DNA from: a virus
Length of the DNA: 31,489 nt
IMG/VR virus record: IMGVR_UViG_3300042484_002329
Span: 1-31,489 of that record
Direction: 5' to 3' (one strand)
The notes under the pieces were generated by a model that searched no databases, was not told the DNA's origin, and saw only the letters and a list, made by a program, of their open reading frames with translations. Positions 1,921-18,830 of the stretch are shown here, in pieces. Positions within the stretch are counted from its first letter, which is position 1; each line of letters starts with the position of its first letter. A program made the position numbers and the translations under genes.

Positions 1921-2703
1921 ATGAGTATATTCAACACTAATTTAATTAAAGATTATTTCACCAATAATCACTCTATAAAGCTAGATGTCAATGGTAAAGA
2001 ATTTTTAGACCGTACACCAATAAAATATCGTTGGTCGCATGGGGCAACGGATTTACATTTGGGCGATGGGTTATTGATTTATTCAACTATTCAATATATG
2101 CGGGCAAAGTGTTGTGTTTGTTTGGGAAGTGGTGGCGGGTTTGTTCCGAGAATAATGTCACAAGCCCGAATGGATTTATATGACCAACAAATATTCAGTG
2201 GTAATAAATCAATAGAGTGGGGTGATATTGGTACAACTATATTAGTAGATGCTGATAATGGTGTTGGAGGCCATACTGATTGGACTGATGCTGACTCATT
2301 TTTTAATAAAAATTTTCCTTGCAGATATATCCTTGATACTACCGAAAATGCGTTCTACAACTATTTCGTAAAAGAAGATATTAAAATTGATTACTTACAT
2401 ATTGATGCAGGACATACCTATGAAGATGTAAAACTTGATTTTGAGTTATATTCAACTCTATTATCACCGTATGGGATAATATCAATACACGATACCGATG
2501 CATCATTTGAAAAAGATTTAATCATAACCGATGATGTCAAAAGTACGGACAACCATCAAGAATTTGCATCAGGTCCATCAAAGTTTATAAGTGAATTAAA
2601 GAAAAATACAGAATGGGAGATTTTTAACTTCTTTAACAATGGAATATTGAGAACTAAACCTGCATCAACGGGTTTAACATTCGTTCAGAGATGCAAAAAT
2701 TAA
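1921..2703 (+). CDS. Class I SAM-dependent methyltransferase (Methyltransf_24-like)
   Basis: A 260-aa protein with the order of motifs of the small-molecule/glycan methyltransferases of the Methyltransf_24 type: a glycine-rich SAM-binding loop VCLGSGGGFVPRIM (66-79), the acidic strand IDYLHIDAGHTYEDV (156-170), and SPYGIISIHDTD (182-193), whose H-D-T after the beta-strand is typical of the family. It is the first gene after the long leader at 1734-1920, and its end overlaps the next glycosyltransferase by 13 bases, so the two are probably co-translated. A likely role is O-methylation of a sugar in the glycan made by this island; this is an inference from context, since the substrate is not visible. 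Confidence 0.75.
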   Translation: MSIFNTNLIKDYFTNNHSIKLDVNGKEFLDRTPIKYRWSHGATDLHLGDGLLIYSTIQYMRAKCCVCLGSGGGFVPRIMSQARMDLYDQQIFSGNKSIEWGDIGTTILVDADNGVGGHTDWTDADSFFNKNFPCRYILDTTENAFYNYFVKEDIKIDYLHIDAGHTYEDVKLDFELYSTLLSPYGIISIHDTDASFEKDLIITDDVKSTDNHQEFASGPSKFISELKKNTEWEIFNFFNNGILRTKPASTGLTFVQRCKN

Positions 2704-3551
2704 GATTAGTAACTGTTACTGGTAGTAGAACGAACACCTTAAAACATATGCTAAATCATTATAAGGATATAGTAGATGAAATGTATGTGGTTGTATATGA
2801 ATGGGAAAGTAATACAACATATGAAAGTGTATTAGAGATTGTATCGCAATTCCCAACTGCAGTTATACTAAAAAGAGTAACAAAAGAAAAATTTAATTGG
2901 GAATTCGTAACCCAATTATATAATGAAACAAAATTACTACACCCAAACGATTGGTGGATAGTTGCAGATGATGATGAATTTCACATATACCCCAAACCAA
3001 TTAAAGAAATAATTGGCGAATGTGAAAAAAATGATTGGAATTTTATTACTGGCGGATTTATTGATAGGATAGGAGAAAATGGAGAGTTTCTACCCATAAA
3101 CAATAATACCAATATTTGGAAACAGTTCCCACTTGCAGGATTTTTTAGATTTCCAATGAGTGGGGCTTGTCCAAATAAAGTTTGTGTAATGAAAGGTTCG
3201 GTTAAATTAACTTCAGGTCAACATTATGTAGATTTTGGAAGTGGAGCAACAAGTTGGGGAATATCACACCTAAATCGCTATCCAATTGGCAGAGGTGAGG
3301 GGTTGATACAAGTACATCATTTTAAGTGGGATGAAACGGCAATTCAACGAATACTCGATGTTGCAAATATTGGAATGAATTATGCATATTCAACCGAATA
3401 CCAAAAAATGTATGATGCAATTAAATCCAATAATTTTAAAATTGATATAACTAATTCTGAATATGTAATCCAACAAATGTCAGATGAAATCCCAAATTTT
3501 AATGAGTATTCTAACTGGCTTCGATTGAGTAAAAAAATCGTAAGAATTTAA
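2691..3551 (+). CDS. GT-A fold glycosyltransferase (GT2/GT92-like)
   Basis: A 286-aa protein. It starts with a short beta-strand and SRTNTLKHMLNHYKD (about 12-26), the usual opening of the Glyco_tranf_2_4/GT92-like enzymes that act on an aligned acceptor. WWIVADDDEFH (88-98) supplies the D-x-D metal/nucleotide-sugar site, and VHHFKWD (208-214) matches the conserved His/Trp motif near the end of the catalytic core. The start overlaps the upstream methyltransferase by 13 bases. The gene is followed by a promoter-like element, so it probably ends a two-gene unit with the methyltransferase. Fold class is fairly sure; specificity is unknown. Confidence 0.7.
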   Translation: MQKLRLVTVTGSRTNTLKHMLNHYKDIVDEMYVVVYEWESNTTYESVLEIVSQFPTAVILKRVTKEKFNWEFVTQLYNETKLLHPNDWWIVADDDEFHIYPKPIKEIIGECEKNDWNFITGGFIDRIGENGEFLPINNNTNIWKQFPLAGFFRFPMSGACPNKVCVMKGSVKLTSGQHYVDFGSGATSWGISHLNRYPIGRGEGLIQVHHFKWDETAIQRILDVANIGMNYAYSTEYQKMYDAIKSNNFKIDITNSEYVIQQMSDEIPNFNEYSNWLRLSKKIVRI

Positions 3552-3814: not shown

Positions 3815-5248
3815 ATGGCTTTAGAAAAAGTTGGTATAATTATTCCGTATCGAAACCGATATGAGCATCTTAAACAATTTACAAACCATATTATTGAATA
3901 TCTTAATGATAGAGATATTAACTATAAAATAATAATTGTAGAACAAGATGATGCTAAATTATTTAATCGTGGAATGCTTCTTAATATAGGATATACCTAT
4001 GCAAAGAAATATAGATGCGATTATTTAGTTTTTCATGATATTGATATGCTACCAATTGAAGTTGATTATTCATATTCAGAATACCCCATACATCTAGCAA
4101 CCGATATAGTGCCAGATAAAGGAGAATTACAGCGAGAAATATTCGAACAATATTTCGGCGGAGTAACAATGTTTCCAATTTCTGATTTTGAAAAAATAAA
4201 TGGGTATTCCAATAAATATTGGGGATGGGGCTTCGAAGATGATGATTTGTTTTACAGATGTAAGATAAATGATATTGTGGCGGAAACCAAAAAAATTCGT
4301 AATGTAACTAAAAACACAAAAATACTAAAATTTAATGGTATAGATTCACACATAACATCAAAAAATACCATAGATTTACGAAGAGATTTTAGCATAACAA
4401 TATCTTTTAAACCCGATGATATTAAATTAAATCACAAAAATACATCAGATGAATTCACTATATTTAGTATTCCTGGTTATGATTTTGCAATATCATATAC
4501 ATCATTTAATCGTTACACTTTTTGTACCTTTAATTCAGAACTAAAGCCTATATATTTAAATACTGAAATTAAACCAAATTATAGAACAAATATTACACTT
4601 GTACATGATTATATTAAATCTACGATAAAAATGTATCAAGATGGGGTATTATTAGGTGAAACCGAAGTTATTGGAAAATTTTATAAGCAATATCGTAATG
4701 AGGAAAAATTATATATTGGGGTGGGAAATCCAAATAGAGAAATAATACCAAATTGGTTTAAAGGTTCATTTGAATATTTCGCACATTATGATACTAAATT
4801 ATCAAGCGAGGCAATTATTGAAATAATCAACAACACCGGTAATTTATTAAATAAAAATTTTGGAAAATACACATATGCAGATAATTTAAAAACATATTAT
4901 GAAAGTACATTTATTAGAGATTACAAATTAATTGATTTATCACCAAACAATAATATGGGACATATTATAAATTGTGAAATAGCAGAAGAAGATTTAGTAA
5001 CTGAAACTGATATGAAAATACCTCATAGAAGATATTCAACATTCAAATCAATAAAACATGATAATAATGGGTTTGTAAATAATCGATGGAAAGATGACAA
5101 TACACGCTGGAATCAACTTAGATTTGTAAATGAAGTTTGCGAAAATTCAGAATTAACAAAAACCGATGGAATATCTGATTTACAATTTGTGGTTCATCGA
5201 AAGGAAAAATTAGATAGAAATATGGAAATGATAACAGTCGGTATATAA
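3815..5248 (+). CDS. Beta-1,4-galactosyltransferase-like (GT7) enzyme with an inserted LamG domain
   Basis: The 477-aa protein reads as an animal-type beta4GalT catalytic domain in two pieces. N-terminal piece (1-150): PYRNRYEHL (11-19), FNRG (50-53), FHDIDMLP (73-80, the D-x-D metal site), YFGGV (113-117) and WGWGFEDDD (136-144, acceptor and catalytic region). C-terminal piece (about 402-477): IPHRR, SIKH with H415 at the metal-ligand position, DG (451-452) and a final TVGI like the family's ITVDI end. Between them, about 167-392, sits a LamG/ConA-like sandwich (LKFNGIDSHI, a DGVLLG strand, LYIGVGNPN, FKGSFEYF). The Met three residues before the metal-binding His of animal enzymes is Ser here. 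No signal peptide or membrane anchor. The last base overlaps the next paralogue. Family call is strong; sugar specificity is open. Confidence 0.85.
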   Translation: MALEKVGIIIPYRNRYEHLKQFTNHIIEYLNDRDINYKIIIVEQDDAKLFNRGMLLNIGYTYAKKYRCDYLVFHDIDMLPIEVDYSYSEYPIHLATDIVPDKGELQREIFEQYFGGVTMFPISDFEKINGYSNKYWGWGFEDDDLFYRCKINDIVAETKKIRNVTKNTKILKFNGIDSHITSKNTIDLRRDFSITISFKPDDIKLNHKNTSDEFTIFSIPGYDFAISYTSFNRYTFCTFNSELKPIYLNTEIKPNYRTNITLVHDYIKSTIKMYQDGVLLGETEVIGKFYKQYRNEEKLYIGVGNPNREIIPNWFKGSFEYFAHYDTKLSSEAIIEIINNTGNLLNKNFGKYTYADNLKTYYESTFIRDYKLIDLSPNNNMGHIINCEIAEEDLVTETDMKIPHRRYSTFKSIKHDNNGFVNNRWKDDNTRWNQLRFVNEVCENSELTKTDGISDLQFVVHRKEKLDRNMEMITVGI

Positions 5249-6705
5249 TGAAATTAGGGGTATGTGTACCATATAGAAATAGAGAAACTCATTTAAAAGA
5301 GTTTATACCAACCGTAGGAAAATACTTAGAAAGTCAAGGTATTGAATACTGTATGTATTTCGGTCATCAAGTAGATGATAAACTATTCAATCGAGGTGCT
5401 ATGAAAAATATAGCAGCAAAACATGCATTTGAAGATGGGTGTGATTATATTGTTTGGCATGATATTGATATGATACCAGAAGAAGGGTGCGATTACTCAT
5501 TTCCAACTGAAACGCCAATTCATATAGCAACGAATATATCACAAATGGATTACAAATTAAAATATGAAGAATATTTTGGTGGAGCTGTGATATTTTCAAA
5601 AGAACAGGTAGAGAAAACTAATGGTTACTCAAACGATTATTGGGATTGGGGTATGGAGGATGATGACCTATTTTGGCGTTGTGTATTAGAAGGGTATGCT
5701 AATGATACCTATATGGATTATACTACCGAAACTCAAAACTATTTACACTTTGATGGTCATAACTCACATATTAAAATACCAAAACACAATACACTTCGTA
5801 ATTTAACATCGCGTTCACATACAATATCTGTATTAGTTAGGGCAAATCAACAAGAAGAAAAAGTACCAATTTGGTTGATTGGCGATGATGAACGCAGATT
5901 TTGTGAATATCCAATAATACGAAGACCTGGCTTTGATTATGGAATTTCATATAATAATAGTAGAGCATACACAGCCCAATTATGGGATAATGAACAAAAT
6001 CATTTGTATCAATGGATAAAACGATATGAAAATCAGTGGAGTTGGGTAACACTCACCGTAGATTCTGCTAATCAAAATATTCATTTTTATTTAAATGGTA
6101 AGGAATCGGATGCAAGACATGGTACTGGTACAACTTCACCATTACATTACCAAAACCGATTAAAAAGTTATGGATTGGATGATTGGTATATTGGAACAAC
6201 CACATCAGTTGGTAAAACCGAACCAAACCGTTGGTTTAAAGGAGATATTGCAAAAGTAATAATGTGGAATCGCAAATTAGAAAAAGAAGAAGTAGAAAAA
6301 CTACATTTAGATATTCCAAAAAATGGAATTACACTACATTATGATTTTAATGCAGAATCAGATAACCGAATTGCGACAGATTTAACAGAAAACGGTATAA
6401 ACGGTGATATAAAACGCTGTGAAATAAAAACAGAAACCATAGTAATACCATACACAATTATACCGCATAGAAGACCGGGTAAATTACGGTGTTTACCACA
6501 TCAAGACGAAGGATTGATAAAAATAAATGGAATTGATAAGTGGGCAAAGGGTGAAACCACTGCTAGAAACGAACGAAGATATGTTTTACAAATGCAACAG
6601 GGTAATTGGGATTATAAATCAGATGGTATTGCACAATTAAAATATGAATTGATTGGAATTGAACATATTAGTTCCAAAGCAAAACTCATAAATGTAAAAC
6701 TTTAA
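5248..6705 (+). CDS. Second GT7 beta-1,4-galactosyltransferase-like enzyme with inserted LamG domain
   Basis: A tandem paralogue of the preceding gene (485 aa), joined to it by a TAATG junction. GT7 motifs: PYRNRETHL (8-16), FNRG (47-50), WHDIDMIP (70-77), YFGG (109-112), WDWGMEDDD (132-140). The LamG-like insertion spans about 165-392 and is clearer here than in the first copy: FDGHNSHIKIP, HTISVLVRA, WVTLTVDSANQNIHFYLNG, WYIGTTTS, FKGDIAKVIMWNRKL and YDFN. The catalytic domain then resumes at IPHRR (406-410), with H418 in CLPH and DG (459-460). Cys replaces the Met of the animal metal-site motif. The two copies have diverged strongly, especially in the insert, which suggests different acceptors rather than a recent duplication. 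Confidence 0.86.
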   Translation: MKLGVCVPYRNRETHLKEFIPTVGKYLESQGIEYCMYFGHQVDDKLFNRGAMKNIAAKHAFEDGCDYIVWHDIDMIPEEGCDYSFPTETPIHIATNISQMDYKLKYEEYFGGAVIFSKEQVEKTNGYSNDYWDWGMEDDDLFWRCVLEGYANDTYMDYTTETQNYLHFDGHNSHIKIPKHNTLRNLTSRSHTISVLVRANQQEEKVPIWLIGDDERRFCEYPIIRRPGFDYGISYNNSRAYTAQLWDNEQNHLYQWIKRYENQWSWVTLTVDSANQNIHFYLNGKESDARHGTGTTSPLHYQNRLKSYGLDDWYIGTTTSVGKTEPNRWFKGDIAKVIMWNRKLEKEEVEKLHLDIPKNGITLHYDFNAESDNRIATDLTENGINGDIKRCEIKTETIVIPYTIIPHRRPGKLRCLPHQDEGLIKINGIDKWAKGETTARNERRYVLQMQQGNWDYKSDGIAQLKYELIGIEHISSKAKLINVKL

Positions 6706-6730: not shown

Positions 6731-8179
6731 ATGGCAGACGAATCAAAAAATATAATATCGGTAGAACTTAAAAAAACTTTAACTGGCGAAAATCCAATTT
6801 ACTTAGGGGTTAGAAACGAATTAAATGAAGTAGGTAAAGGTATGTGTCTTGCTAAATGGACACAGACTACATTACACCTACAATTAGGACACACCCATTC
6901 ATGTCATCACCCAAGTACACATCAAATACCGGTAAAGGAAATAGAAAGAAACCCATCTGCCCTACATAATACTCAATATAAAAAGAGAAGACGTAAGGAA
7001 ATGTTGGAGGGTGAAAGGCCATCTGAATGTGATTATTGTTGGGGAGTTGAGGATAATTCCGATAGATTTTCAGATAGAACATTTAAATCTGCAGAGAGTT
7101 GGTCATATCCATTTATGGATGAAATTAAAAACTCAAACTGGCGAGATGACTATAATCCGAAATATGTAGAAGTTGCGTTTTCAAATGCTTGTAATTTTAA
7201 GTGTTCGTATTGTTCACCGGCTTTTTCATCAAAGTGGATGGAAGAAATTGAACAATTTGGTGCATATCCAACTACTGATAAATTCAATTCGTTGGATTAT
7301 AGTATAATGGAAAACAAAGTGCCAATAAAACACTCTGATGCAAATCCATATGTAGATGCATTTTGGAAATGGTGGCCGGAATTGTATGAAGATTTACACA
7401 CATTCAGAATTACTGGAGGTGAACCACTAATGAGTAAAGATACATGGGATGTATTAGATTATATACTAAACCACCCAAACCCAAATAAAAATCTGCAACT
7501 TGCTATTAACTCAAATTTAGGAGTACCTGATAAACTGATTGATAAATTTATTGATAAGGTAAACAAAATATGTGATGAAGGGAGAGTTAAAGAATTTATT
7601 ATATTTACATCATGTGATACATGGGGAGAGCAGGCCGAATATATAAGAAATGGATTAGTATTTAATAAATTTTGGGATAATGTAAATAAAGTATTAACAA
7701 AATGTCCAACTGTAAATGTTACGTTTATGGTTACGTATAATGCGTTATCAGTACCAAATTACATTAAATTGATAGATGGTATATATGATTTAAAAAGCAC
7801 ATATGGTTCAACTGATAGATATTGGAACTCTGCAGTATTTTTAGATACATCCTATTTAAGATATCCGACACATCAGACAGTTCAAGTATTACCTTATGAT
7901 TTTGCAGATTTAGTTTTCAAACAGGCACAAAGAACCGATTTCCTGGCAGTTCCATTATTTGAAAATAAATATATTGGATATTCGGATATTGAAATTCAAA
8001 AAATTAAAAGAACATATGATTGGATGATTTCACCGATTGATGATAGAAGATTATATGAACAGAGATATAATTTTGGTAAATATTTTGAAGAACACGATGT
8101 ACGTAGAGGTACTGATTTTAAAAAAGTATTTCCAGAACTTGCAGATTTTTATGAATTTACTAAAACACTAAAATTATGA
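6731..8179 (+). CDS. Radical SAM protein with N-terminal twitch-like Cys cluster
   Basis: A 482-aa protein. NACNFKCSYCSP (152-163) is the C-x3-C-x2-C motif (C154, C158, C161) that binds the SAM-cleaving 4Fe-4S cluster, and TGGEP (228-232) is the SAM-contact motif. Before the barrel lie C39, C58, C100 and C103 in GMCLAKW, SCHHP and ECDYCW, an arrangement I associate with the twitch-domain radical SAM proteins, where extra Cys residues bind an auxiliary Fe-S cluster. Such proteins are known from phages and bacteria, but their reactions are mostly undefined. The gene starts a long unit, overlaps the LamG gene by 4 bases (ATGA) and sits among sugar enzymes, so a glycan or peptide modification is a fair guess. 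Start context is TTATGG without a Shine-Dalgarno. Confidence 0.82.
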   Translation: MADESKNIISVELKKTLTGENPIYLGVRNELNEVGKGMCLAKWTQTTLHLQLGHTHSCHHPSTHQIPVKEIERNPSALHNTQYKKRRRKEMLEGERPSECDYCWGVEDNSDRFSDRTFKSAESWSYPFMDEIKNSNWRDDYNPKYVEVAFSNACNFKCSYCSPAFSSKWMEEIEQFGAYPTTDKFNSLDYSIMENKVPIKHSDANPYVDAFWKWWPELYEDLHTFRITGGEPLMSKDTWDVLDYILNHPNPNKNLQLAINSNLGVPDKLIDKFIDKVNKICDEGRVKEFIIFTSCDTWGEQAEYIRNGLVFNKFWDNVNKVLTKCPTVNVTFMVTYNALSVPNYIKLIDGIYDLKSTYGSTDRYWNSAVFLDTSYLRYPTHQTVQVLPYDFADLVFKQAQRTDFLAVPLFENKYIGYSDIEIQKIKRTYDWMISPIDDRRLYEQRYNFGKYFEEHDVRRGTDFKKVFPELADFYEFTKTLKL

Positions 8180-8898
8180 TTATAGAGGGAAATTCGGCAT
8201 GGTATGTATCGCCATCAAATAGATACGGATTAAGTAAAGTAACTTCTAACAACATAACTAATAGTGATTTTACATTTTTATGCAGAATTAAAATTGATTG
8301 GGAAAAAATGGTAGAAAATACCTATACCCAACATAGTTCTATAATGATAAAAAGCGGTAAAAATTTGGGAATTGGAGTATCAAAGACTGGAAATAATTAT
8401 AGAGTAATTAAAGCATTAGCATGGACAACCGTACTACCAGATGATACAAATACTAAAGGTGTTCATGAAATACACATACCACTTAATAACGATACGACAC
8501 TGCCTGATATTAGTGAAGGTGATATTGATTGCGTTTTTTCATATAGTGTTATGACTAAAACTTTAAGATTAAACGTAAATGGAATTGAAAAAACGCTACA
8601 CGTTGAAAATCCATTAATAGATTATTCTGCATCTTGGCTATGGGTCGGTTGTGCAAATCCATTAGAAAATATACCATTAGAACATAGCCATTATTTTTTT
8701 GGTGAATTCAAATTAATGGGAATATATCAAAAGTACTTAACGAATGAGGAAATCCAACGTGCATTCAACAAACAACTTAATTCAGAACATAGTGTAATTG
8801 CCTATTATGACTTTGAAGAATCGACCCCCTATAAAATAATGGATGTTAGTAGTAATGGTAATCACTTAAATAAGTATGATAAAAGATGGATGGATTAG
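8176..8898 (+). CDS. Stand-alone LamG/ConA-like lectin-type domain protein
   Basis: A 240-aa protein made almost entirely of one jelly-roll domain of the Laminin_G_3 type: opening strand with DFTFLCRIKID, a middle strand TLRLNVNGIEKTL (equivalent to the usual L-Y-x-N/D-G), LWVGCANP, then FFGEFKLMGIYQKYLTNEEI and a closing VIAYYDFEE followed by DVSSNGNHL. This order parallels the inserts of the two GT7 genes upstream. No signal peptide or catalytic residues. Start overlaps the radical SAM gene by 4 bases and the end overlaps the following gene by 13 bases. It may be a virion-attached carbohydrate binder or a subunit that presents glycans to a partner enzyme; sequence alone cannot separate these. 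Confidence 0.72.
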   Translation: MIIEGNSAWYVSPSNRYGLSKVTSNNITNSDFTFLCRIKIDWEKMVENTYTQHSSIMIKSGKNLGIGVSKTGNNYRVIKALAWTTVLPDDTNTKGVHEIHIPLNNDTTLPDISEGDIDCVFSYSVMTKTLRLNVNGIEKTLHVENPLIDYSASWLWVGCANPLENIPLEHSHYFFGEFKLMGIYQKYLTNEEIQRAFNKQLNSEHSVIAYYDFEESTPYKIMDVSSNGNHLNKYDKRWMD

Positions 8899-10307
8899 AA
8901 TTGCTAAATACAAATATTAATTTTGTTTTCGAATTCAAAACGCCAAATGGATACTTACCTTTGGGATATAATAAATACTCATTACCAGTAAATATTTTTC
9001 ATAATATCGAAAATATATACACAACTGATTATACGATTATTGCAAATTCAATGAACACACCATCGGAGTATTCAGTTAGAAACGCAAGCTATCCTATAAA
9101 ATTACTTGAAAGAGGTAAACATATACATCGAGTATTATTAAAAGATTTAAATGAAAAAACTATAAATCCTAATGAAATATATGTGTTATGTTTTGAATCA
9201 TTTTCAACCGAAGTACTATTTCAATATTATGGCGATATACTAAATCGTATTGATAATATGATATCACCTAAATTACTTAATTTAGTAAAAACAAAAGAAA
9301 ATTTTAAAATAGCATTTGTTGATATATGGGAAGGTTCATATCCACATGATTATACTATATTTGATAATATAAACAATTTTTTAAATGCACATAATATAAA
9401 TCATGAAAACAAAGTATTTGTCAGTTCGTGTAATGTTTTAATTGAAAGTATGGATGGTAATAAAATAAATCCAACGGATATTCAGCGAATTAAAGCATTT
9501 ACAAACGATAATTACATATATGAGGCAGGAAATTATATATCACAATTAAGGGCAAGTAAATCAAATGAAATAGTTGAAAATGATTACGAATATTCCATAC
9601 AAGATGCAATAATATATAATCCGAAACCAAAAAAGTTTTTAATGTATAATCGAAATACATCGAGATTACATAGACCCTGGTTTGTAAAAAAATTATATGA
9701 AAATGATTTGTTAAAATCTGGTTACATTTCATTAATCCAAAATAATGAATTTGAAGAAAGATTAGATAAGGATATAACTGAAATTCAAGAATTAGATTTA
9801 ACTAAATCTGATATGCATGATTTAGTAAATTCTTACAAAAACTTTTATCCTTTAAATATAGATGAAACCGATGGCGACCGAATTGCATGGTTACATAACT
9901 ATTTAAGTAGAAGAAAGGAATATGAAGAAACTTATTTTACAATTGTAGGTGAAACAAACGCAGAAGCACAGTATCTTTTCATAACCGAAAAAACATTAAA
10001 ACCAATAATGAATTTACATCCGTTTTTTATTGTCGGTAATCCATATACTATAAAATATTTACAAAAATTAGGGTTTAAAACATTTTCAGATTTTTGGGAC
10101 GAGAGTTATGATGTAGAACCAAATTTCAAATTAAGATGTGAGATGATTGTTGTTGAGGTTAAAAAACTATGTGAAAAATCTGATACAGAATTACTAAAAT
10201 TATTAAAAAATATGGAAGATATATTACATCATAATAAAAAACTACTACACTCATTTTATACGAAAAATAAAAGAGAATCAATATTCAGAGAAAATATAAC
10301 AAAATAA
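8886..10307 (+). CDS. Putative glycosyltransferase, GT10-like C-terminus (paralogue 1 of 3)
   Basis: A 473-aa protein. The C-terminal half carries a signature shared with the genes at 12468 and 18817: KKFLMYNRNTSRLHRP (249-264), GETNAEAQYLFITEKTLKPI (355-374), HPFFIVG (378-384), and LGFKTFSDFWDESYD (395-409). The ITEK...KPI...P pattern resembles the donor-binding region of family GT10 fucosyltransferases (Y-x-T-E-K and a following Pro-rich strand), so a GT-B glycosyltransferase is likely, but I am not certain of the family. The N-terminal half (KIAFVDIWEGSYPHDY, 141-156) would be the acceptor domain. Directly overlaps the LamG gene and lies 8 bases before an epimerase gene. Confidence 0.58.
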   Translation: MDGLELLNTNINFVFEFKTPNGYLPLGYNKYSLPVNIFHNIENIYTTDYTIIANSMNTPSEYSVRNASYPIKLLERGKHIHRVLLKDLNEKTINPNEIYVLCFESFSTEVLFQYYGDILNRIDNMISPKLLNLVKTKENFKIAFVDIWEGSYPHDYTIFDNINNFLNAHNINHENKVFVSSCNVLIESMDGNKINPTDIQRIKAFTNDNYIYEAGNYISQLRASKSNEIVENDYEYSIQDAIIYNPKPKKFLMYNRNTSRLHRPWFVKKLYENDLLKSGYISLIQNNEFEERLDKDITEIQELDLTKSDMHDLVNSYKNFYPLNIDETDGDRIAWLHNYLSRRKEYEETYFTIVGETNAEAQYLFITEKTLKPIMNLHPFFIVGNPYTIKYLQKLGFKTFSDFWDESYDVEPNFKLRCEMIVVEVKKLCEKSDTELLKLLKNMEDILHHNKKLLHSFYTKNKRESIFRENITK

Positions 10308-10315
10308 TAAATAAT

Positions 10316-11287
10316 ATGAATGTATTAATCACAGGCGGTGCAGGCTATTTAGGTTCGGTATTGATTGAAGAACTTTTTAATCATGGTGGAATTAGTAAAT
10401 TAACGGTGTATGATAATTTAATGTACAATCAAACATCGTTAATTCATTACAGTTGGAGAAAAAACTTCGAATTTGTATATGGCGATGTTAGAGATGAAAA
10501 AACCTTAGCAAAATATGTAGATGAAGCAGATGTAATCATTCCACTGGCAGCAATCGTAGGATTTCCTGCATGTGATAGAGATAAAGACCTTGCAACTGCA
10601 GTAAATTATACTCATGTAAAGTTTATATGTGATAGTATAAAAAATACTGATAAAAAAATTGTGTACCCAAATACAAATAGTGGGTATGGGATAGGAGAAA
10701 ATGGTGAATGTACTGAAGAAAGTCCACTCAACCCTATTTCGCATTACGGAGTGACGAAAGTACTTGCTGAAAAGGAAGTAATAAAAGTTGGTGGAATATC
10801 AATAAGACTTGCCACCGTTTTTGGTTCATCACCCCGAATGCGAATGGATTTACTTGTTAATGAGTTTGTATATAAAGCCCTAACAGATAAGTACATTACC
10901 ATTTTTGAAAAAAAATTCATAAGAAACTACATTCATATTAGAGATGTTGCAAATGCATTTATTTATATGATTGAAAATTATGATAAATTGAAAGGCGAAG
11001 CATTTAATGTAGGACTATCAGATGCAAATTTATCAAAAGAACAATTGGTAAATAAAATAAAAGAATATGTACCTGATTTTGCTATAACATATTCGGATTA
11101 TTATGAAGACCCTGATAAACGTGACTATATAGTATCAAACGCAAAGTTGGAAAAATTAGGATGGAGACCCCATCATAGTTTAGATTCAGGTATTGTAGAA
11201 TTGATTAAAACATATAAAATTTTAATACAAGATTTATCATCAAAATATAGAAATGGATTTCCATTAGGTTATGGCACAAGGACGTAG
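10316..11287 (+). CDS. NAD-dependent sugar epimerase/dehydratase (extended SDR)
   Basis: A 323-aa extended short-chain dehydrogenase. TGGAGYLG (6-13) is the N-terminal G-x-x-G-x-x-G NAD-binding loop, YGDVRD (55-60) contacts the cofactor, NTNSGYG (119-125) supplies the catalytic Ser and SHYGVTK (142-148) the Y144-x3-K148 pair. FIRNYIHIRDVANAF and the C-terminal LGWRPHHSLDSGI are typical of nucleotide-sugar epimerases/dehydratases. It acts on an NDP-sugar in the cytoplasm. It overlaps the RmlC-like gene by 17 bases, so the two probably work in sequence, for example reduction or dehydration together with 3,5-epimerisation of a 4-keto sugar. No preceding RmlA or RmlB is seen in the window, so the substrate may come from the host. 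Confidence 0.85.
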   Translation: MNVLITGGAGYLGSVLIEELFNHGGISKLTVYDNLMYNQTSLIHYSWRKNFEFVYGDVRDEKTLAKYVDEADVIIPLAAIVGFPACDRDKDLATAVNYTHVKFICDSIKNTDKKIVYPNTNSGYGIGENGECTEESPLNPISHYGVTKVLAEKEVIKVGGISIRLATVFGSSPRMRMDLLVNEFVYKALTDKYITIFEKKFIRNYIHIRDVANAFIYMIENYDKLKGEAFNVGLSDANLSKEQLVNKIKEYVPDFAITYSDYYEDPDKRDYIVSNAKLEKLGWRPHHSLDSGIVELIKTYKILIQDLSSKYRNGFPLGYGTRT

Positions 11288-11855
11288 TATATTTTACAAA
11301 GAACGTAGTTGGAATGATTTTCACTACTATAATGGTTCGGTATTGCCGGAAGTTAAAATTGTGCAACCATCGGTTTATCATGAATATCGAGGTTCAATCT
11401 CTACAACTTATCACTCCGATTATTACGATAGATTGTTGCCGGCTGCTGAACGTAACGAAGGGTTACAATTTAAGCATGATAGATATTCAAAATCAAAATT
11501 TGGAGTATTGAGGGGGTTACATTACGATGATAAAACATGGAAACTGGTATCTTGTCTACATGGTAAAATATATTTGGTTGTATTAGATGTTAGACCTAAA
11601 CAACCAAACTATGGAAAATGGGAATCATTTATAATATCACCCGAAACTGCAACACAAGTACTAATACCACCCGGATTTGCTAACGGTCATTTCATTATGG
11701 AAGACGATTCAATTTTCCACTATAAAATGGCGTATAATGGAGAATATAATGATGAAACTAAACAAAAAACAATAGTGTTTAACGATAAACGATTTAACAT
11801 AGAATGGCCGGTTCAATCGCCCATTCTTTCAACAAGAGATAGAAATGGAAATTAA
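11271..11855 (+). CDS. dTDP-4-dehydrorhamnose 3,5-epimerase-like protein (RmlC family)
   Basis: A 194-aa cupin of the dTDP_sugar_isom family. FGVLRGLHYD (77-86) contains the catalytic-base His (H84) in the invariant R-G-L-H-Y motif. KLVSCLHGKIYLVVLDVR (91-108) and IPPGFANGHF (132-141) are the following conserved strands, close to V-x-x-G-x-(I/V)-x-D-V-x-x-D and P-x-G-x-x-H-G-F of the family. Length is near the usual 180-190 aa. The N-terminal about 30 residues are an extension. It would convert a dTDP-4-keto-6-deoxyhexose, or a similar NDP-4-keto sugar, to its 3- and/or 5-epimer. Its start overlaps the epimerase upstream and its end overlaps the next gene by 11 bases. Confidence 0.85.
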   Translation: MAQGRSIFYKERSWNDFHYYNGSVLPEVKIVQPSVYHEYRGSISTTYHSDYYDRLLPAAERNEGLQFKHDRYSKSKFGVLRGLHYDDKTWKLVSCLHGKIYLVVLDVRPKQPNYGKWESFIISPETATQVLIPPGFANGHFIMEDDSIFHYKMAYNGEYNDETKQKTIVFNDKRFNIEWPVQSPILSTRDRNGN

Positions 11856-12483
11856 AAATTTAAACTTTCATTCAGATAGATGGGATGGTAGTAATTATAC
11901 ACCCGATGAATTAATCCAATTTGAGAACGATGTTATTGCACATTGGGAAAATGGTGAAATTACCGGTCCTATACATTTATCAAACGGAAATGAAGAACCA
12001 CTTATCGAAATTTTTAAAAAAATAGCAGTAGATGATTGGGTATTTTCTACATGGAGGTCGCATTATCATGCACTATTACATGGAATTGATAAGCATTGGT
12101 TAATGAATGAGATACTGGCTGGTAGAAGTATTACGATTGTAAATAAAAAATCAAATTTCTATTCATCGGCAATTGTAACGGGTATATTACCAATTGCGTT
12201 GGGTGTGGCAAAATCAATAAAATTAAAAGGTGAAGATAAAAAGGTATGGTGTTTTATTGGGGATATGACATTTGAAACCGGTATATTTTACGAGGTTCAT
12301 AAATATGCTAGAAATCATAATTTGCCTCTATATTTTGTAGTTGAAGATAACGAAGTATCGACTAACACACCAACATCTCATACATGGGGCGGTATTCAAC
12401 GAGATATACCAGATGATGTTATGTATTACAAATATAAATCAAAATATCCACATTATGGGACAGGAAAATGGATAGTATTTTAA
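11845..12483 (+). CDS. Thiamine-diphosphate enzyme, E1-alpha-like (PP-domain) subunit
   Basis: A 212-aa protein matching the core of the alpha subunit of 2-oxoacid dehydrogenase E1 (E1_dh type). STWRSHYHALLHG (68-80) corresponds to the Y-R-D-H-x-H-x-L-x-x-G segment, SSAIVTGILPIALGVAKSIK (107-126) to the family's G-x-V-x-x-Q-x-P-x-A-x-G-x-A, and IGDMTFETG ... VVEDNEVSTNT (138-174) to the G-D-x(about 28)-N Mg/ThDP-binding motif. E1-alpha chains are normally over 320 aa; here the C-terminal third is missing because the next gene begins at 12468. The partner is the E1-beta-like gene at 18279, in a different promoter unit. No lipoyl or E3 gene is present, so this is probably a small ThDP lyase or transferase in sugar biosynthesis and not a dehydrogenase complex (inference). 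Confidence 0.72.
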   Translation: MEIKNLNFHSDRWDGSNYTPDELIQFENDVIAHWENGEITGPIHLSNGNEEPLIEIFKKIAVDDWVFSTWRSHYHALLHGIDKHWLMNEILAGRSITIVNKKSNFYSSAIVTGILPIALGVAKSIKLKGEDKKVWCFIGDMTFETGIFYEVHKYARNHNLPLYFVVEDNEVSTNTPTSHTWGGIQRDIPDDVMYYKYKSKYPHYGTGKWIVF

Positions 12484-13640
12484 ACTTTGTCTTTTTAAAG
12501 GATACGTTAGAATTTAATGGAGAAAAGAGACCAATGGCTAATGGTCCATTATTTTATTACGTAACCAATAGGGGATATTCATGTACAATATCTGGTAAAA
12601 TTCGTACTGGCTATAAAAATTTACTGTTAATAGAATCATTGGGTAATAAACTAGATGCAGTAATGGATATATCTGATGATATATATGATTATGTCCGCAA
12701 CAATGATGTAAAATTACTATTTGTAAGTGTGGCTGACCCCAGCGATATTATCACATTTCATCGCGGATATTCATACATAGCCACTAAATTACCAAACGAT
12801 AAATATTATATAGTAGATTCAAATACCTATCTATCAACTATATCCGATATCTATACATTAGATTGGTTTTTAGAAGATGGCCAATGTACTCCTACTAATT
12901 CGGTTAAAAATGTAAATGATTTAGGTTATATTAGTGAATATATTGAACTAAATGAGTTAAAGAGTTTTCGAAATAAAAAATTTCTATGTTTTAATCGAAA
13001 TGTTGATAGACACCATCGAATATCATTACTACACGAATACATGATAAACAATTATTCAGATTCATATTTTACATTTTTACTAAAAACTGAACATTATTCA
13101 ACCCCATATCTGTTAGATTCAACTCCCTATACCAAAGAAGAGTATAATAAACTAATTCCGATGGAATTGGATACTCAAAATGCCGAAAATAAGTATAGTT
13201 TTAGAGTTACTGATACTAATAAAAAAGAATTATTTTTAAATTCTTGTATAAATTTAGTAACAGAGAGTAGTTTTCATAATAATGAGTTGTTTATATCTGA
13301 AAAAATAATCAAACCTATTATAAATTATCAACCATTTATAGTATTTGCATCAGTAGGGTATTTAAAACGTCTAAAAACACATGGATTTAAGACATTTTCG
13401 GATATTTGGGATGAAAACTATGACACCATTGAGGATAGCGAACAACGATTTTTTACTTTATTAAAATTAGTTAGAGAAATTAACTCAAAAAGTATAGAAG
13501 AAGTTAATGATATATACAAAAAGTGTTTAGATATTTGTATTTTTAATAAAAATCATTTTTACTCACAAAATAAAGATACTATGTCAGATATTTTAAAAGA
13601 TATTAGTGAGAAATGGGATGAACGTGACAAATTGATATGA
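12468..13640 (+). CDS. Putative glycosyltransferase, GT10-like C-terminus (paralogue 2 of 3)
   Basis: A 390-aa member of the same family as the genes at 8886 and 18817 but with a different and shorter N-terminal domain. Shared elements: KKFLCFNRNVDRHHRIS (170-186), LVTESSFHNNELFISEKIIK (263-282), PIINYQPF (283-290) and LKTHGFKTFSDIWDENYD (302-319), followed by TIEDSEQRF. The S-E-K-x-x-K-P-I segment matches the putative donor-binding site. The start overlaps the E1-alpha-like gene by 16 bases and the end overlaps the radical SAM gene by 4 bases (ATGA). Likely a cytoplasmic glycosyltransferase with its own acceptor; the family assignment rests on motif resemblance only. Confidence 0.58.
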   Translation: MDSILNFVFLKDTLEFNGEKRPMANGPLFYYVTNRGYSCTISGKIRTGYKNLLLIESLGNKLDAVMDISDDIYDYVRNNDVKLLFVSVADPSDIITFHRGYSYIATKLPNDKYYIVDSNTYLSTISDIYTLDWFLEDGQCTPTNSVKNVNDLGYISEYIELNELKSFRNKKFLCFNRNVDRHHRISLLHEYMINNYSDSYFTFLLKTEHYSTPYLLDSTPYTKEEYNKLIPMELDTQNAENKYSFRVTDTNKKELFLNSCINLVTESSFHNNELFISEKIIKPIINYQPFIVFASVGYLKRLKTHGFKTFSDIWDENYDTIEDSEQRFFTLLKLVREINSKSIEEVNDIYKKCLDICIFNKNHFYSQNKDTMSDILKDISEKWDERDKLI

Positions 13641-14833
13641 TATATAATCCAGAATTAGATAATTTTGATAAATTTGTAGTAGAATGGGATAGTGAAACAG
13701 AATATGTCCTTTTTGGTGCAAGTAAAGAGTGTGTCCAATTCATTAGAAGTATTGATTACCTATTAGGAAGTGATAAATTAAAAATAAAATATATTGTAGA
13801 CCACGATATAAAGGATACTACCACAATAGAGAATATAAACGAAATAAGTGAATATTATCACCAATCAAAAAACTTTAAAACTCAAAGACCGGCAATAAAA
13901 TTAATACATATTGATGATTTTAATGAAGATGTTCCCGTAATAATAACGACAGATGAATATCGAGCAAAATATACTGCATATTTGAATGAAAAAAGCATAA
14001 AACATACAACATATAAAAAAATAGCAGCTATATGGCCATTGAAATATGAAAACATAGTGCATATATTTCAAACCGATATACTTGTAACCGAACGATGTAA
14101 TTTAGCTTGTTCGCATTGCAATATGTTTATACCACATTTTGAATCGCCAACCCATAGAGATGTAAATCAAATAAAATCCGATATAGATGTATATTTTACT
14201 ATCGTAGATTATGTAAGCGTATATCATTTAGTTGGAGGCGAACCATTTTTATACCCAAATATTCAGGATATAATTGAACATATACTAACAAACTATTCAA
14301 ATAAAATTGATAAATTTATAATTACAACTAATGGCACGGTTATACCAAAAGAACCAACGTTAGAGTTGTTAAAAAACAATAATATAATATTAAGTGTTAG
14401 TGATTATTCTGATAAATTAGAAAAACTAAAAAATAAAGTTATTAGAACGATTGAAACTTATAAATTTCATAATATAAAACACTACGTCAGAAATAGTATT
14501 GAGTGGTATGATTTCGGAGATTTACGTATTAAAAAAAATATGAAAACCGATGAATTAATAAATCACTTTGATAGTTGCACGGCACCATTTAGAGGATTAA
14601 ACGATGGTAAATTTTATTATTGTCATTTAAACACAAGTGCAGTTGCAACTAAAATATTTCCACTTAATGATAATGATTATATTAGTTTAGATTCCGTAAC
14701 AAAAGAAGAACTAATCAAATTTGATTTGGGATATACTACATTAGGATACGTTACATTTTGTGATAATTGTAATGGTTGTAATACGGGAATAAAAATACCA
14801 GTAAGTTATGAACATCAAGGAATACGAAAATGA
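13637..14833 (+). CDS. Radical SAM enzyme with N-terminal Rossmann-like domain and C-terminal Cys cluster
   Basis: A 398-aa protein. Residues 1-130 form a separate domain beginning with YVLFGASKECVQFIRSI (23-39), which resembles a small nucleotide-binding fold. ERCNLACSHCN (152-162) is the radical SAM C-x3-C-x2-C motif (C154, C158, C161), LVGGEPFLYPN (198-208) the SAM-binding GGEP motif and ITTNG the next conserved strand. A C-terminal SCTAPFRGL ... FYYCHLN and FCDNCNGC look like ligands of an auxiliary SPASM/twitch-type cluster. It is the second radical SAM protein of the island and not closely similar to the first. A role in sugar or peptide modification is inferred from context. It overlaps the HAD gene by 4 bases. 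Confidence 0.8.
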   Translation: MIYNPELDNFDKFVVEWDSETEYVLFGASKECVQFIRSIDYLLGSDKLKIKYIVDHDIKDTTTIENINEISEYYHQSKNFKTQRPAIKLIHIDDFNEDVPVIITTDEYRAKYTAYLNEKSIKHTTYKKIAAIWPLKYENIVHIFQTDILVTERCNLACSHCNMFIPHFESPTHRDVNQIKSDIDVYFTIVDYVSVYHLVGGEPFLYPNIQDIIEHILTNYSNKIDKFIITTNGTVIPKEPTLELLKNNNIILSVSDYSDKLEKLKNKVIRTIETYKFHNIKHYVRNSIEWYDFGDLRIKKNMKTDELINHFDSCTAPFRGLNDGKFYYCHLNTSAVATKIFPLNDNDYISLDSVTKEELIKFDLGYTTLGYVTFCDNCNGCNTGIKIPVSYEHQGIRK

Positions 14834-15267
14834 TAGTAATAGTTGATATAGATAATACGTTATGTTTGAGTGGTAAACGATTAGACTTAGCAAAGAAAGA
14901 AGACGGGAAAATTGATTGGGATATTTTACACAATCCGGAACTCATAGAACAGGATGAACCAAACTTTCCAATGATTGATTTGGCACATAGATACAAACTT
15001 GTAGAAAATATTGAAGTCATAATAATAACAGGTAGACCCGAATCTATACGAGAAGTTACTGAATTGTGGTTAAAAAAGTACCATATTGAATATGATAAAT
15101 TATATATGAGAACCGAAAAAGACCATTATATACAAGCGGATGCGTTTAAAAGAAAAATATATAAAACTCATATAAACGATAAAGTATTTTGTGCGTTTGA
15201 TGATGACCAAAGTATAATAGATATGTGGTTAAGTTTAGGAATACCTACATTCAAAGTTTATACGTAA
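14830..15267 (+). CDS. HAD-superfamily phosphatase (polynucleotide kinase 3'-phosphatase-like)
   Basis: A 145-aa minimal HAD hydrolase. VDIDNT (5-10) is motif I with the nucleophile D6 and acid D8, IITGRPES (65-72) is motif II and FDDDQSIIDMW (123-133) is motif IV with the Mg-binding acids; K107 or K109 could serve as motif III. The end, DDDQSIIDMWLSLGIPTFKV, closely parallels the C-terminal phosphatase domain of T4 polynucleotide kinase (I-D-D-x-x-x-V-x-M-W-x-x-x-G). The kinase domain is absent. In T4-like phages such domains repair RNA ends, but its position in the sugar island leaves open a sugar-phosphate phosphatase. The next gene starts at its stop codon (TAATG). Confidence 0.75.
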   Translation: MIVIVDIDNTLCLSGKRLDLAKKEDGKIDWDILHNPELIEQDEPNFPMIDLAHRYKLVENIEVIIITGRPESIREVTELWLKKYHIEYDKLYMRTEKDHYIQADAFKRKIYKTHINDKVFCAFDDDQSIIDMWLSLGIPTFKVYT

Positions 15268-16265
15268 TGAATACAATTGATACACAAATTAAAATATTAT
15301 TAAGTGGTGTAAATTGGGAAGAGCCGGAAACACATAAAGAATTGGGATACATTTACTTTGGCCCACTTATGTATAATTTTTTTATATGGTTAAAATCGGA
15401 AGTAGCATCACACGATTTGGTATTATTTAATTCAAGAGAGGGATATTTTTTTAAAGAGATATATGAATTATTTCAAAAAAAATATGAATTACCTAAAAGT
15501 ATTTACTTTAAAACATCTAGAAAATTATCATCAATGGTTTCATATAAAAGACCCAACGATATTTATGAATCATTTAAATATCATCGCTATAATGGTAGTT
15601 TATCAAATTTACTCAAAGATAGATTTGGGGTTGTAACAAATGTAGATGATAATTGTTACGTTGATAGTGTAAAACAAATACCTGATTTAACTCCATATCT
15701 TGCACAAATATTATCCAAAGCAAAAACTACAAGAGATGAATATTCAAAATACATCAATACTATAATTGGTAATTCTAAAAATGTAATAATGGTAGATAGT
15801 GGATTTCAGGGAACAACCCAAAAAAATATTGAAAAAACATATGATTTAAAATTTGCCGGAAGGTATTTAATATATAAAGAAAATCCAAAATTATTAAATG
15901 TTAAAGGATTATATGAATATGAAAATTGTAAATTAAAAAATAATTTAATTTTTTTTGAATCCGTTTTTATTGATAAAGTTGGAACGTATATTGACATCAT
16001 CAACGGCGAGTTCGTAAATGAAGATATGAGTGAAAATCAAAAATATTTTAATGGCAAAGAAGATATAATTTCGGGTATTAAAAAATTTGTGAGTGATATG
16101 TTAGAGAATACTATCAGTACAGATAAAATACCAACAGAATTATCCGATAATATTTTTAATTTAATGTGTAAACGGAATTATATAAGGAATGATGCTTTAT
16201 TTGATATATTTTTACATGACAACCGATATACACGAGAATATACAAAAAAATTAGATAGGATTTAA
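15267..16265 (+). CDS. COG5610-like protein of polysaccharide clusters
   Basis: I place the start at 15267, in the TAATG junction with the HAD gene; an upstream in-frame ATG at 15225 would overlap that gene by 43 bases and adds 14 unremarkable residues. The 332-aa protein has ELGYIYFGPLMYNFFIWL (25-42), LVLFNSREGYFFKEIY (51-66), FKTSRK (81-86) and VIMVDSGFQGTTQ (173-185). These follow the pattern G-Y-x-x-x-G-P-x-x-x-x-F-x-x-W-L, F-x-x-R-(E/D)-G-Y, S-R-(R/K) and V-D-x-G-x-x-G-T that I know from COG5610-type proteins encoded in capsule and O-antigen clusters. That group is annotated as predicted HAD hydrolases, but its biochemistry is unsettled. Last gene of its unit; a promoter-like repeat follows. 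Confidence 0.6.
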   Translation: MNTIDTQIKILLSGVNWEEPETHKELGYIYFGPLMYNFFIWLKSEVASHDLVLFNSREGYFFKEIYELFQKKYELPKSIYFKTSRKLSSMVSYKRPNDIYESFKYHRYNGSLSNLLKDRFGVVTNVDDNCYVDSVKQIPDLTPYLAQILSKAKTTRDEYSKYINTIIGNSKNVIMVDSGFQGTTQKNIEKTYDLKFAGRYLIYKENPKLLNVKGLYEYENCKLKNNLIFFESVFIDKVGTYIDIINGEFVNEDMSENQKYFNGKEDIISGIKKFVSDMLENTISTDKIPTELSDNIFNLMCKRNYIRNDALFDIFLHDNRYTREYTKKLDRI

Positions 16266-16275
16266 ATAATCAGTA

Positions 16276-16303
16276 AATTTAAAAATAATATATTTATATA
16301 TAC
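16276..16303 (+). promoter_or_regulatory. Putative phage promoter element, copy of a perfect 28-bp repeat
   Basis: Identical to bases 3545-3572. It contains AATATATTTATATATAC (16287-16303) and ends 13 bases before the ATG at 16317, in a 51-base intergenic gap. Confidence 0.55.
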
Positions 16304-16316
16304 AGATAAAAACACA

Positions 16317-17282
16317 ATGAAAAACAAAAAGGTTTTAATAACAGGTGCCAATGGTTTAGTTGGTAACTATATGGTTCAAAAATGTATAGATAGAGGTGCG
16401 TTTGTAACCGCAGTCGATATAAACATTCCACAAAATCAAATTGAAAAATTTAAAGATGAAAATTATCAATTCATTAATGCAGATTTACGCGAATTCAAAA
16501 ATTGTAAAAAAGTAGTTGAGGGACAGGATATTATATTTCATATAGCAGGAGTAAAGGGTTCACCAAAACGAGCAGCAGAACAACCGGCGGATTACTTCGT
16601 TCCAATGTTACAATTTAATACAAATATGATGGAAGCTTCTCGTTTAGAAGGAGTTGAGTGGTATGTGTATACATCTACCGTTGGAGTATATCAACCGGCA
16701 GAAGTATTTTATGAAGATGATGTGTGGAAAACATTCCCATCAGAAAAAGATAAATACGCAGGTTGGGCAAAACGTTTAGGAGAATTACAAGCAGAAGTAT
16801 ATTCAGTATCGTATGATTGGAATAAAGTATCCATAGTTAGACCTGCAAACATCTACGGTAGACATGATAATTTCGGTCCAGAATCAACTGTCATAGCATC
16901 CCTAATCAAACGATTATTTGGCGAAAAAGAACATCCATTAGTATGTTGGGGAGATGGTTCACCGATTAGAGATTTTATTTACGCGGGAGATATAGCAGAT
17001 GGTATAATTCAAGCATATGAGGGAAAAATTACACAACCTATAAATTTAGGAAGTGGTACTGGTGTTACTATAAAAGAACTTGCAGAAACTCTTGTTGAAA
17101 TATACGAAGAAATGTATGGTAAAAGGGTTGAAATAAACTGGGACCCAACTAAACCAAACGGAGATGAAAAGCGATTGATGAGTACTGAAAGGGCAGAATC
17201 ATATGGTATTAAACAAAAAGTATCATTAAAAGCCGGATTGAGGGAAACTATTGATTATTACTTAAACGAATATAAAAAATAA
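16317..17282 (+). CDS. GDP-L-fucose synthase-like NAD-dependent epimerase/reductase
   Basis: A 321-aa extended SDR. ITGANGLVG (8-16) binds NAD(P) and YTSTVGVY (118-125) gives the catalytic Ser/Thr region. The C-terminal half strongly recalls GDP-fucose synthase: RPANIYGRHDNFGPESTVI (175-193), VCWGDGSPIRDFIYAGDIAD (209-228), INLGSGTGVTI (242-252) and WDPTKPNGDEKRLMS (275-289, the D-x-x-K-P-x-G-x-x-x-K substrate-binding element). The catalytic Tyr-Lys pair is irregular: KYAGWAK has Y147 five, not four, residues before K152. Likely makes a 6-deoxy sugar nucleotide; no GDP-mannose 4,6-dehydratase is in the window. First gene of a unit of five with a promoter-like repeat upstream. Confidence 0.75.
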   Translation: MKNKKVLITGANGLVGNYMVQKCIDRGAFVTAVDINIPQNQIEKFKDENYQFINADLREFKNCKKVVEGQDIIFHIAGVKGSPKRAAEQPADYFVPMLQFNTNMMEASRLEGVEWYVYTSTVGVYQPAEVFYEDDVWKTFPSEKDKYAGWAKRLGELQAEVYSVSYDWNKVSIVRPANIYGRHDNFGPESTVIASLIKRLFGEKEHPLVCWGDGSPIRDFIYAGDIADGIIQAYEGKITQPINLGSGTGVTIKELAETLVEIYEEMYGKRVEINWDPTKPNGDEKRLMSTERAESYGIKQKVSLKAGLRETIDYYLNEYKK

Positions 17283-17286
17283 AATT

Positions 17287-18279: not shown

Positions 18280-18830
18280 TGAGTACACCAAAATATACTA
18301 CATATGTTGATGCATTGACCGCCGCTATGAAAACCATCATGAGTGATGAAAATACTATATTCATAGGTCAGCAAATTGTTTATTATGGAAACCCAATGTC
18401 AAAAACTATTGAAGGATTACCTATTGAAAAAATGATAGAAGTTCCTGTAATGGAAGAAGTCCAAATGGGAATAAGTTTAGGTTTGGCAATGAACGGTCAT
18501 AAAGTAGTTTCATTTTATCCTCGCTGGGATTTTATATTATGTGCAAGTAATCAACTGATAAATCATTTAGATAAAATCAAAAAAATGTCAAATGGTCAAT
18601 GGAATCCACATATATTAATACGTGTTGGTAAGGGTTCGGATAAACCATTAGACCCCGGCCACCAACATAAAGGAAACTATATCGAACAATTCCGCTCAAT
18701 GTCATCTGAAATACAATATTACGATTTAAAAACTTCAAAAGATATTGAATCCGCATATACTTATGCTAATACTAACGTGGGAATACATATTTTAGCAGAA
18801 TATCCGGAGTTGTACTATGAAAATAATTAG
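18279..18830 (+). CDS. Thiamine-diphosphate enzyme, E1-beta-like (Pyr-domain) subunit
   Basis: A 183-aa protein equal to the N-terminal pyrimidine-binding domain of the 2-oxoacid dehydrogenase E1 beta chain. YVDALTAAMKTIMSDENTIF (9-28) matches the family opening (A-L-x-x-A-M-x-x-x-M-x-x-D), and VPVMEEVQMGISLGLAMNG (55-73) carries the Glu (E59) that activates the thiamine ring. FYPRWDFILCASNQLINH (79-96) and a Gly/His-rich DPGHQHKGN (125-133) correspond to the F-x-x-F-x-x-x-A-x-x-Q-I-x-N and A-Q-H-S-Q regions. The C-terminal half of a normal E1-beta (about 325 aa) is absent. Partner of the E1-alpha-like gene at 11845. Overlaps the next gene by 14 bases. Confidence 0.74.
   Translation: MSTPKYTTYVDALTAAMKTIMSDENTIFIGQQIVYYGNPMSKTIEGLPIEKMIEVPVMEEVQMGISLGLAMNGHKVVSFYPRWDFILCASNQLINHLDKIKKMSNGQWNPHILIRVGKGSDKPLDPGHQHKGNYIEQFRSMSSEIQYYDLKTSKDIESAYTYANTNVGIHILAEYPELYYENN

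Follow-up and report, generated by a model that had tools for sequence, protein, structure and literature searches.

The window analyzed here, a stretch of 31,489 nucleotides (positions 1 to 31,489 of the IMG/VR virus record IMGVR_UViG_3300042484_002329), contains a tandem pair of genes, both on the plus strand, coding for enzymes of glycosyltransferase family 7 (GT7) with an internal LamG domain. The first gene, P1 (P0001, 3815-5248), codes for a protein of 477 amino acids (aa) and the second, P2 (P0002, 5248-6705), for one of 485 aa; both were delimited by their open reading frames, which overlap by one base, by Pfam matches and by AlphaFold2 models. In P1, the first part of the GT7 domain (3815-4282, residues ~1-156) contains the FNRG, HDID, YFGG and WGWGFEDDD motifs and the subsequent helix, and was assigned through PDB matches and a hidden Markov model (HMM) of bacterial GT7s. 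It is followed by the LamG-fold insert (4283-5008, residues ~157-398, boundaries +/- ~8 residues), which has a Pfam LamG_3 match at residues 176-334 and Foldseek matches to 4dqa and pentraxins, and by the second GT7 part (5009-5245, residues ~399-477), which includes the IPHRR motif, the metal-site His415, N433, D451-G452 and the last strands, and which was placed by residue conservation and by the second piece of the bacterial HMM match (residues 404-475). P2 is organized in the same way: a first GT7 part (5248-5709, residues ~1-154; phmmer match to beta4GalT1 over residues 2-151, E-value 4.3e-27), a LamG-fold insert (5710-6447, residues ~155-400; Pfam LamG_3 at 169-349 and profile matches to S-layer protein, pentraxin and sialidase LamG) and a second GT7 part (6448-6702, residues ~401-485), which contains IPHRRPGKLRCLPH, N441, D459-G460 and the last strands, has P406, H418 (the metal-site His), N441 and G460 as invariants and was placed by a profile match to beta4GalT1 given below.

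The order of the Pfam matches is the same in both proteins (Glyco_transf_7N, Glyco_transf_7C and Laminin_G_3) and all of them exceed the gathering cut-offs, with E-values of 5e-23, 1.1e-17 and 1.2e-6 in P1 and 2.6e-16, 7.5e-20 and 8.5e-13 in P2; the two LamG_3 scores are 49.1 and 29.2 bits, for a cut-off of 27.6. P1 and P2 are 31% identical overall, and the best solved relatives of their first 150 residues in sequence searches are the beta-1,4-galactosyltransferases 1 and 7 (E-values ~1e-24 to 1e-28), whose PDB matches cover P1 residues 3-169. Among 95 representatives of the family, Glyco_transf_7N and Glyco_transf_7C both match in every one (E <= 0.01) and LamG_3 in 85. The GT7 identity of the two proteins, and the motifs that the original prediction had named from the sequence (IPHRR, the metal His and D-G among them), are real.

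That prediction also held that the LamG domain is inserted in the catalytic domain, which is resumed after it, and not appended to its end. An HMM was built from 40 short bacterial GT7s without insert (87-127 aa past the WGWG motif), and all the 208 insert-type viral proteins match this uninterrupted model as two pieces, the N-terminal piece ending and the C-terminal one starting at model position 164 (medians, n=208), separated by a gap of median 246 aa (range 196-321, n=208); the C-terminal piece has an independent E-value below 1e-3 in 186/208. When the last 90 residues were shuffled, the second piece was left in none of the 208. In addition, the profile of the insert-type family matches the PDB chain of beta4GalT1 twice, with profile positions 2-152 on chain 65-218 and 418-467 on chain 235-282; this second match is weak but collinear and spans the C-terminal end of beta4GalT1, and the short bacterial GT7 family aligns to beta4GalT1 right across that C-terminal region. 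The split match, its loss upon shuffling and the collinearity with beta4GalT1 together indicate that the C-terminal piece is GT7 and that the LamG domain lies inside the catalytic domain, as had been anticipated; a domain simply appended is ruled out by the split HMM match and the shuffled null. By these profiles, the catalytic domain continues up to where the WGxEDDD helix ends, breaks for ~245 residues of LamG fold and then resumes, and, both halves being GT7, the proteins are a variant within the family and not outsiders, even though their catalytic domain is not continuous, unlike that of all GT7s with solved structure (a usual, not a defining, feature). The expected splitting of the Glyco_transf_7C match around LamG was not seen, as this Pfam model ends at about the insertion point; it is the full-length GT7 model that is split.

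The number of residues past the WGWG motif is bimodal: short GT7s, found in bacteria and some phages, have 80-127, insert-type proteins have 280-440 and no protein falls between. The insertion point follows the distal end of the xED helix and precedes the strand to the metal-site His; that His is ~11 residues further on. GT-A folds have three hypervariable regions (beta3-alphaC, beta6-beta7 and the tail after beta8; PMC7185993), and by our reading the insertion site is outside all three and precedes beta8. In-silico removal of the insert lengthened the beta4GalT1 match of a single-sequence search only to the metal His and barely raised its score, so that it is the family profiles that carry the insertion argument. 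An assembly error or chimera was ruled out, since the layout is seen in 208 proteins across many contigs, and so was an intein- or intron-like element, as neither P1 nor P2 has a Hint or intein Pfam match and the insert is a LamG domain. A 568-aa insert-type relative (L221:1239-2942) extends more than 400 residues past the motif and seems to contain a second 'RxxGxYKS' segment, which looks like a partial duplication of its return segment.

AlphaFold2 models, for which the alignments contained only sequences of the window and the loci, have high confidence across nearly the full length of both proteins (pLDDT 95.3 and pTM 0.90 for P1; pLDDT 94.1 and pTM 0.87 for P2), and the high pTM values are consistent with a fixed packing of the GT-A and LamG domains. 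In Foldseek searches, the N-terminal part matched beta4GalT1/7 and the insert matched LamG/pentraxin folds (4dqa and pentraxins). The order of helices and strands in the confident models fits beta4GalT1 and the sequence profiles agree with it; the predicted completion of the GT-A fold by the residues past ~400 is based on both. There was no full-length counterpart of this layout among the top 50 matches in BFVD (viral predicted structures), where the matches with a name are either LamG proteins or short giant-virus GT7s. The insert resembles the LamG_3/pentraxin-fold proteins (4dqa, pentraxins, sialidase N-terminal domains) in its jelly-roll fold, at only ~10-16% identity. In contrast to ordinary LamG_3 proteins, in which the DLSGN-type element (YDF...DLSGNxN) stands before the FDG strand, inserts carry this element at their C-terminal end (P2 residues ~361-390): it was found behind the LamG core in 89/208 insert-type proteins and ahead of it in 0/208, an order of sequence elements as in a circular permutation of LamG_3. 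By eye, the stand-alone LamG gene of the window (8176-8898) shows the same order.

The catalytic residues are conserved throughout. All 95 representatives share, without exception, the equivalents of the beta4GalT1 FNR arginine, of the HD[IV]D (DxD-type) motif, of both tryptophans and the E-D in WxWGxED and of the C-terminal metal His. The Gly of the D-G motif is likewise invariant (95/95); its Asp is kept in 91 and replaced by Glu in 4. The YFGG tyrosine (Y in 94/95, F in 1/95) is the residue that we take to be equivalent to Tyr289 of beta4GalT1, which, according to established work on that enzyme, favours galactose (Gal) over N-acetylgalactosamine (GalNAc). At the FNR arginine, the R228K change turns beta4GalT1 from Gal to glucose (PMC7185993). 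The presence of both residues would, by beta4GalT1 enzymology, favour UDP-Gal as the donor, and P1 and P2 are most likely active, metal-dependent, inverting GT7 glycosyltransferases that use UDP-galactose. It is very improbable that they are catalytically dead and serve as lectin-like or scaffolding proteins, given that catalytic and metal-site residues are invariant in 95/95 representatives and that, of the regions compared below, the N-terminal core has the lowest ratio of nonsynonymous to synonymous substitution (dN/dS, 0.026-0.05 in P2).

The animal enzymes B4GALT1 and B4GALT7 (CAZy GT7) resemble P1 and P2 in catalytic fold and sequence (~30-38% identity over 150 residues) and share with them the DxD-type metal motif, WGxEDD, the C-terminal metal His and the FNR arginine, but they are membrane-anchored Golgi enzymes without LamG and with no domain separating the xED helix from the metal His. 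The nearest relatives of the catalytic core are bacterial GT7s (e.g., from Azospirillum, Pelagibacteraceae and Halieaceae) and short phage GT7s from IMG/VR, with an identical motif order; two of the bacterial proteins (L117 and L118) are 46-47% identical to the first 150 residues of P2. They differ from the insert type in having only 80-127 residues past the WGWG motif. The original prediction described the family as best known from animals; it is no peculiarity of theirs, since bacterial GT7s are common and phage GT7s without insert occur in IMG/VR.

Comparison of the window with close relatives gave dN/dS values of 0.03-0.16 for the N-terminal core, 0.09-0.25 for the insert and 0.06-0.30 for the C-terminal piece, all of them rough because synonymous sites are near saturation. 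The insert is kept by purifying selection and is neither drifting nor diversifying; positive selection or hypervariability of the inserts is unsupported by dN/dS. Between P1 and P2, identity is 48% in the N-terminal core, 23% in the insert and 27% in the C-terminal piece. The strong divergence of the inserts that had been noted is thus real when compared with the N-terminal core, although its suggested cause, a tuning to different sugars, does not follow, since the C-terminal catalytic piece diverges as fast and under similar dN/dS. Mapping the insert label on the tree of N-terminal cores takes two changes, and constraining the insert types to one clade gave a better likelihood (p-AU, from the approximately unbiased test, 0.765), which is compatible with a single origin of the insert. 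The data fit a single insertion, after which duplications gave rise to at least the P1-like, the P2-like and other paralogues.

The pair is part of an operon whose genes are all on the plus strand. It is preceded by a methyltransferase gene (1921-2703; Pfam Methyltransf_24; in 74/80 related loci) and a GT2-like glycosyltransferase gene (2691-3551; in 75/80), assigned from a weak match below the cut-off (Pfam Glyco_tranf_2_4, 9.6e-5), and is followed by the gene for a twitch-domain radical S-adenosylmethionine (SAM) protein (6731-8179; NCBIfam NF033640, 358 bits for a cut-off of 170; in 79/80) and by that of the stand-alone LamG-like protein (8176-8898; Pfam LamG_3 at 0.0032, also weak and below the cut-off; in 36/80). 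The order methyltransferase, GT2-like, GT7-LamG, GT7-LamG and twitch radical SAM is strongly conserved in 80 related contigs, with a P1-like gene in 78 and at least two insert-type genes in 71; no short GT7 was found in any of the 80 loci. The twitch radical SAM gene behind the GT7 pair is the tightest association among the other neighbours. The remainder of the glycan-synthesis cluster (8886-20265) contains genes for short-chain epimerases/dehydratases (SDR), an RmlC-like epimerase, a SPASM-like radical SAM protein, a split thiamine pyrophosphate (TPP) enzyme (E1-alpha-like and Transket_pyr) and three related transferase-like proteins without a Pfam match, the RmlC and transferase identities being based on reading and neighbour BLAST. 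The halves of the TPP enzyme (11845-12483, pyruvate dehydrogenase E1-alpha-like, and 18279-18830, transketolase pyrimidine-binding) are ~6 kb apart and perhaps serve an unusual sugar. The three related proteins (8886-10307, 12468-13640 and 18817-20265) share the motif SEKTxKPIxxxxPFxxxxxxxxLxxLxxxGFKTFSDxWDExYD and are, by eye, reminiscent of GT10 fucosyltransferases; no convincing Pfam match was obtained, and NCBIfam and PHROG had none for those tested.

The contig represents part of the genome of a T4-like tailed phage. Microcystis phage Mel-JY01 and Flavobacterium phage immuto, which gave no match to P1 or P2, have terminases with 55-56% identity to that of the contig. The cluster comes after the end of a gene that weakly matches a putative tail-fibre-like protein of phage immuto; one gene of a related operon (L116) has a virion structural protein as its PHROG match, and in Mel-JY01 a large protein containing glycosyltransferase domains is encoded upstream of the terminase, next to a structural gene. 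This structural and tail-gene context favours a glycan for the virion or for the surface of the infected cell, and the target is probably one of these two, the virion (e.g., its tail proteins) or the cell surface. Virion glycosylation is known in mycobacteriophages, according to the literature cited in PMC12619734.

The explanation that we favour is that P1 and P2 are active GT7 enzymes carrying an acceptor-recognising LamG domain, inserted only once, and that they catalyze successive steps of a phage glycan pathway; taken as a whole, we consider it evenly poised between right and wrong. According to this model, a LamG (ConA-like) domain would have entered the ancestral enzyme at the turn that joins the xED helix to the metal-His strand, and would pack on the GT-A fold as a rigid second domain. 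It would most likely provide a second surface for acceptor recognition, which, by analogy, would bind the glycan or glycoprotein under extension and hold it for transfer. P1 and P2 would each take a different step of a common pathway, in which the neighbouring methyltransferase, GT2-like and radical SAM proteins would also take part, and the product would be a phage-encoded glycan that probably decorates the virion (e.g., tail proteins) or the surface of the infected cell. Such a role resembles that of GalNAc-transferases (GT27) and GnT-IVa (GT54), transferases with a lectin domain: PMC4432651 describes GalNAc-transferase lectin domains that steer or regulate transfer, and in GnT-IVa the lectin domain steers acceptor use or activity (PMC9296478). 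In these enzymes, which belong to other families, the lectin domain is at the C-terminus and not within the catalytic domain. A precedent for a GT-A fold interrupted by an inserted module is PGAP4 (GT109), split by two transmembrane helices that are thought to help present the acceptor (PMC5785973), although its insert is not a LamG domain and its family is another one.

Several observations weigh against the acceptor-recognition model. The insertion is located at the distal end of the xED helix and not beside the acceptor lid, in disagreement with the loop next to the acceptor site proposed in the original prediction; the Foldseek local alignments end at the insert, with the C-terminal piece placed by sequence and secondary structure order; and no ligand-binding site could be recognised in the insert, in which only a few conserved residues, apparently structural ones (G, F, Y), are common to the two paralogues. 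Moreover, many LamG domains bind protein or play a structural role. The holding of the acceptor remains a plausible mechanism, attached to an architecture that is real, widespread, conserved and new for GT7.

The main rival is a LamG insert that binds no sugar and acts as a protein docking or oligomerisation module, assembling P1, P2, the stand-alone LamG protein and other enzymes of the operon, or docking on a virion protein. Protein binding and oligomerisation are common among pentraxin-like and LamG folds, a stand-alone LamG-like gene is found downstream in 36/80 loci and one LamG_3 protein of a related T4-like Flavobacterium phage is annotated as 'structural protein'; the few residues conserved in both paralogues, which outline no obvious common interface, speak against such a role, and we regard it as rather unlikely. 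An improbable alternative is that the insert is a tolerated, mainly structural passenger of a surface turn, needed for folding but without a binding role: the insertion at a helix end far in sequence from the catalytic residues, the adjacent termini of ConA-like folds, which ease insertion, and an evolution rate of the insert similar to that of the C-terminal catalytic piece would all suit a passenger, whereas the purifying selection on the insert and the lack of any secondary loss of it within the 80 loci would not. Equally improbable appears a more specific arrangement, in which P1 and P2 would form a two-enzyme polymerase of a repeating polysaccharide, with inserts that bind the growing glycan and enzymes that alternate, each insert reading the product of the other. 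Finally, there is a slim chance that the transferases act on DNA or a small molecule instead of a virion or cell-surface glycan, since nucleotide-sugar epimerases, a TPP enzyme and several transferases make a typical surface-glycan locus, the cluster is situated after a putative structural or tail gene and GT7 is not known as a DNA-glycosylating family. The idea draws on the DNA glucosylation known in T4-like phages and on phage transferases that also build DNA hypermodifications (literature cited in PMC12619734).

Whatever the role of the insert, in the glycosyltransferases compared here lectin domains are appended at an end, and in P1 and P2 a lectin-fold domain lies within the GT-A catalytic domain, past the xED helix and ahead of the metal His. 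The GT7s of phages and bacteria, some with the insert and some lacking it, form a natural set that makes the role of the domain directly testable, and insert-type enzymes could yield soluble beta4GalT-type tools with new acceptor ranges. As had been claimed, no described GT7 with this layout was found in open-access papers (subscription literature being outside the search), in phage records or in NCBIfam.

A survey of phage metagenomes, as suggested with the original prediction, found the same architecture in well over 100 viral contigs from the environment, almost always as tandem genes. P2 alone retrieved 174 stretches in viral contigs, a profile search of viral contigs gave at least 550 matches and 64 loci with relatives came from bacterial and archaeal genomes. 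The layout is widespread in environmental virus sequences, mostly but not only viral, and points to a glycan built by widespread uncultured aquatic T4-like phages. P1 and P2 had no match in the 50,697 named phage records of INPHARED. GT7 of either type is practically absent from these records, whereas hundreds of environmental viral contigs have it, which sets cultured apart from uncultured phages. Full-length insert types are few in bacterial assemblies. The view that all copies are of bacterial origin was set aside, as the full-length contigs from metagenome-assembled genomes L112, L113 and L116 share this phage operon and probably come from phages; the length of L114 and L119 does not suffice to assign them to phage or bacterium. 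One further contig (L115), where the GT7-LamG gene adjoins ABC exporter, HlyD-like and GT2 genes, looks bacterial. Its gene order (L115:6516-15682) is GT7-LamG, GT2, an ABC transporter, a weak HlyD-like protein and a second ABC transporter, an arrangement that hints at glycosylation of a secreted product.

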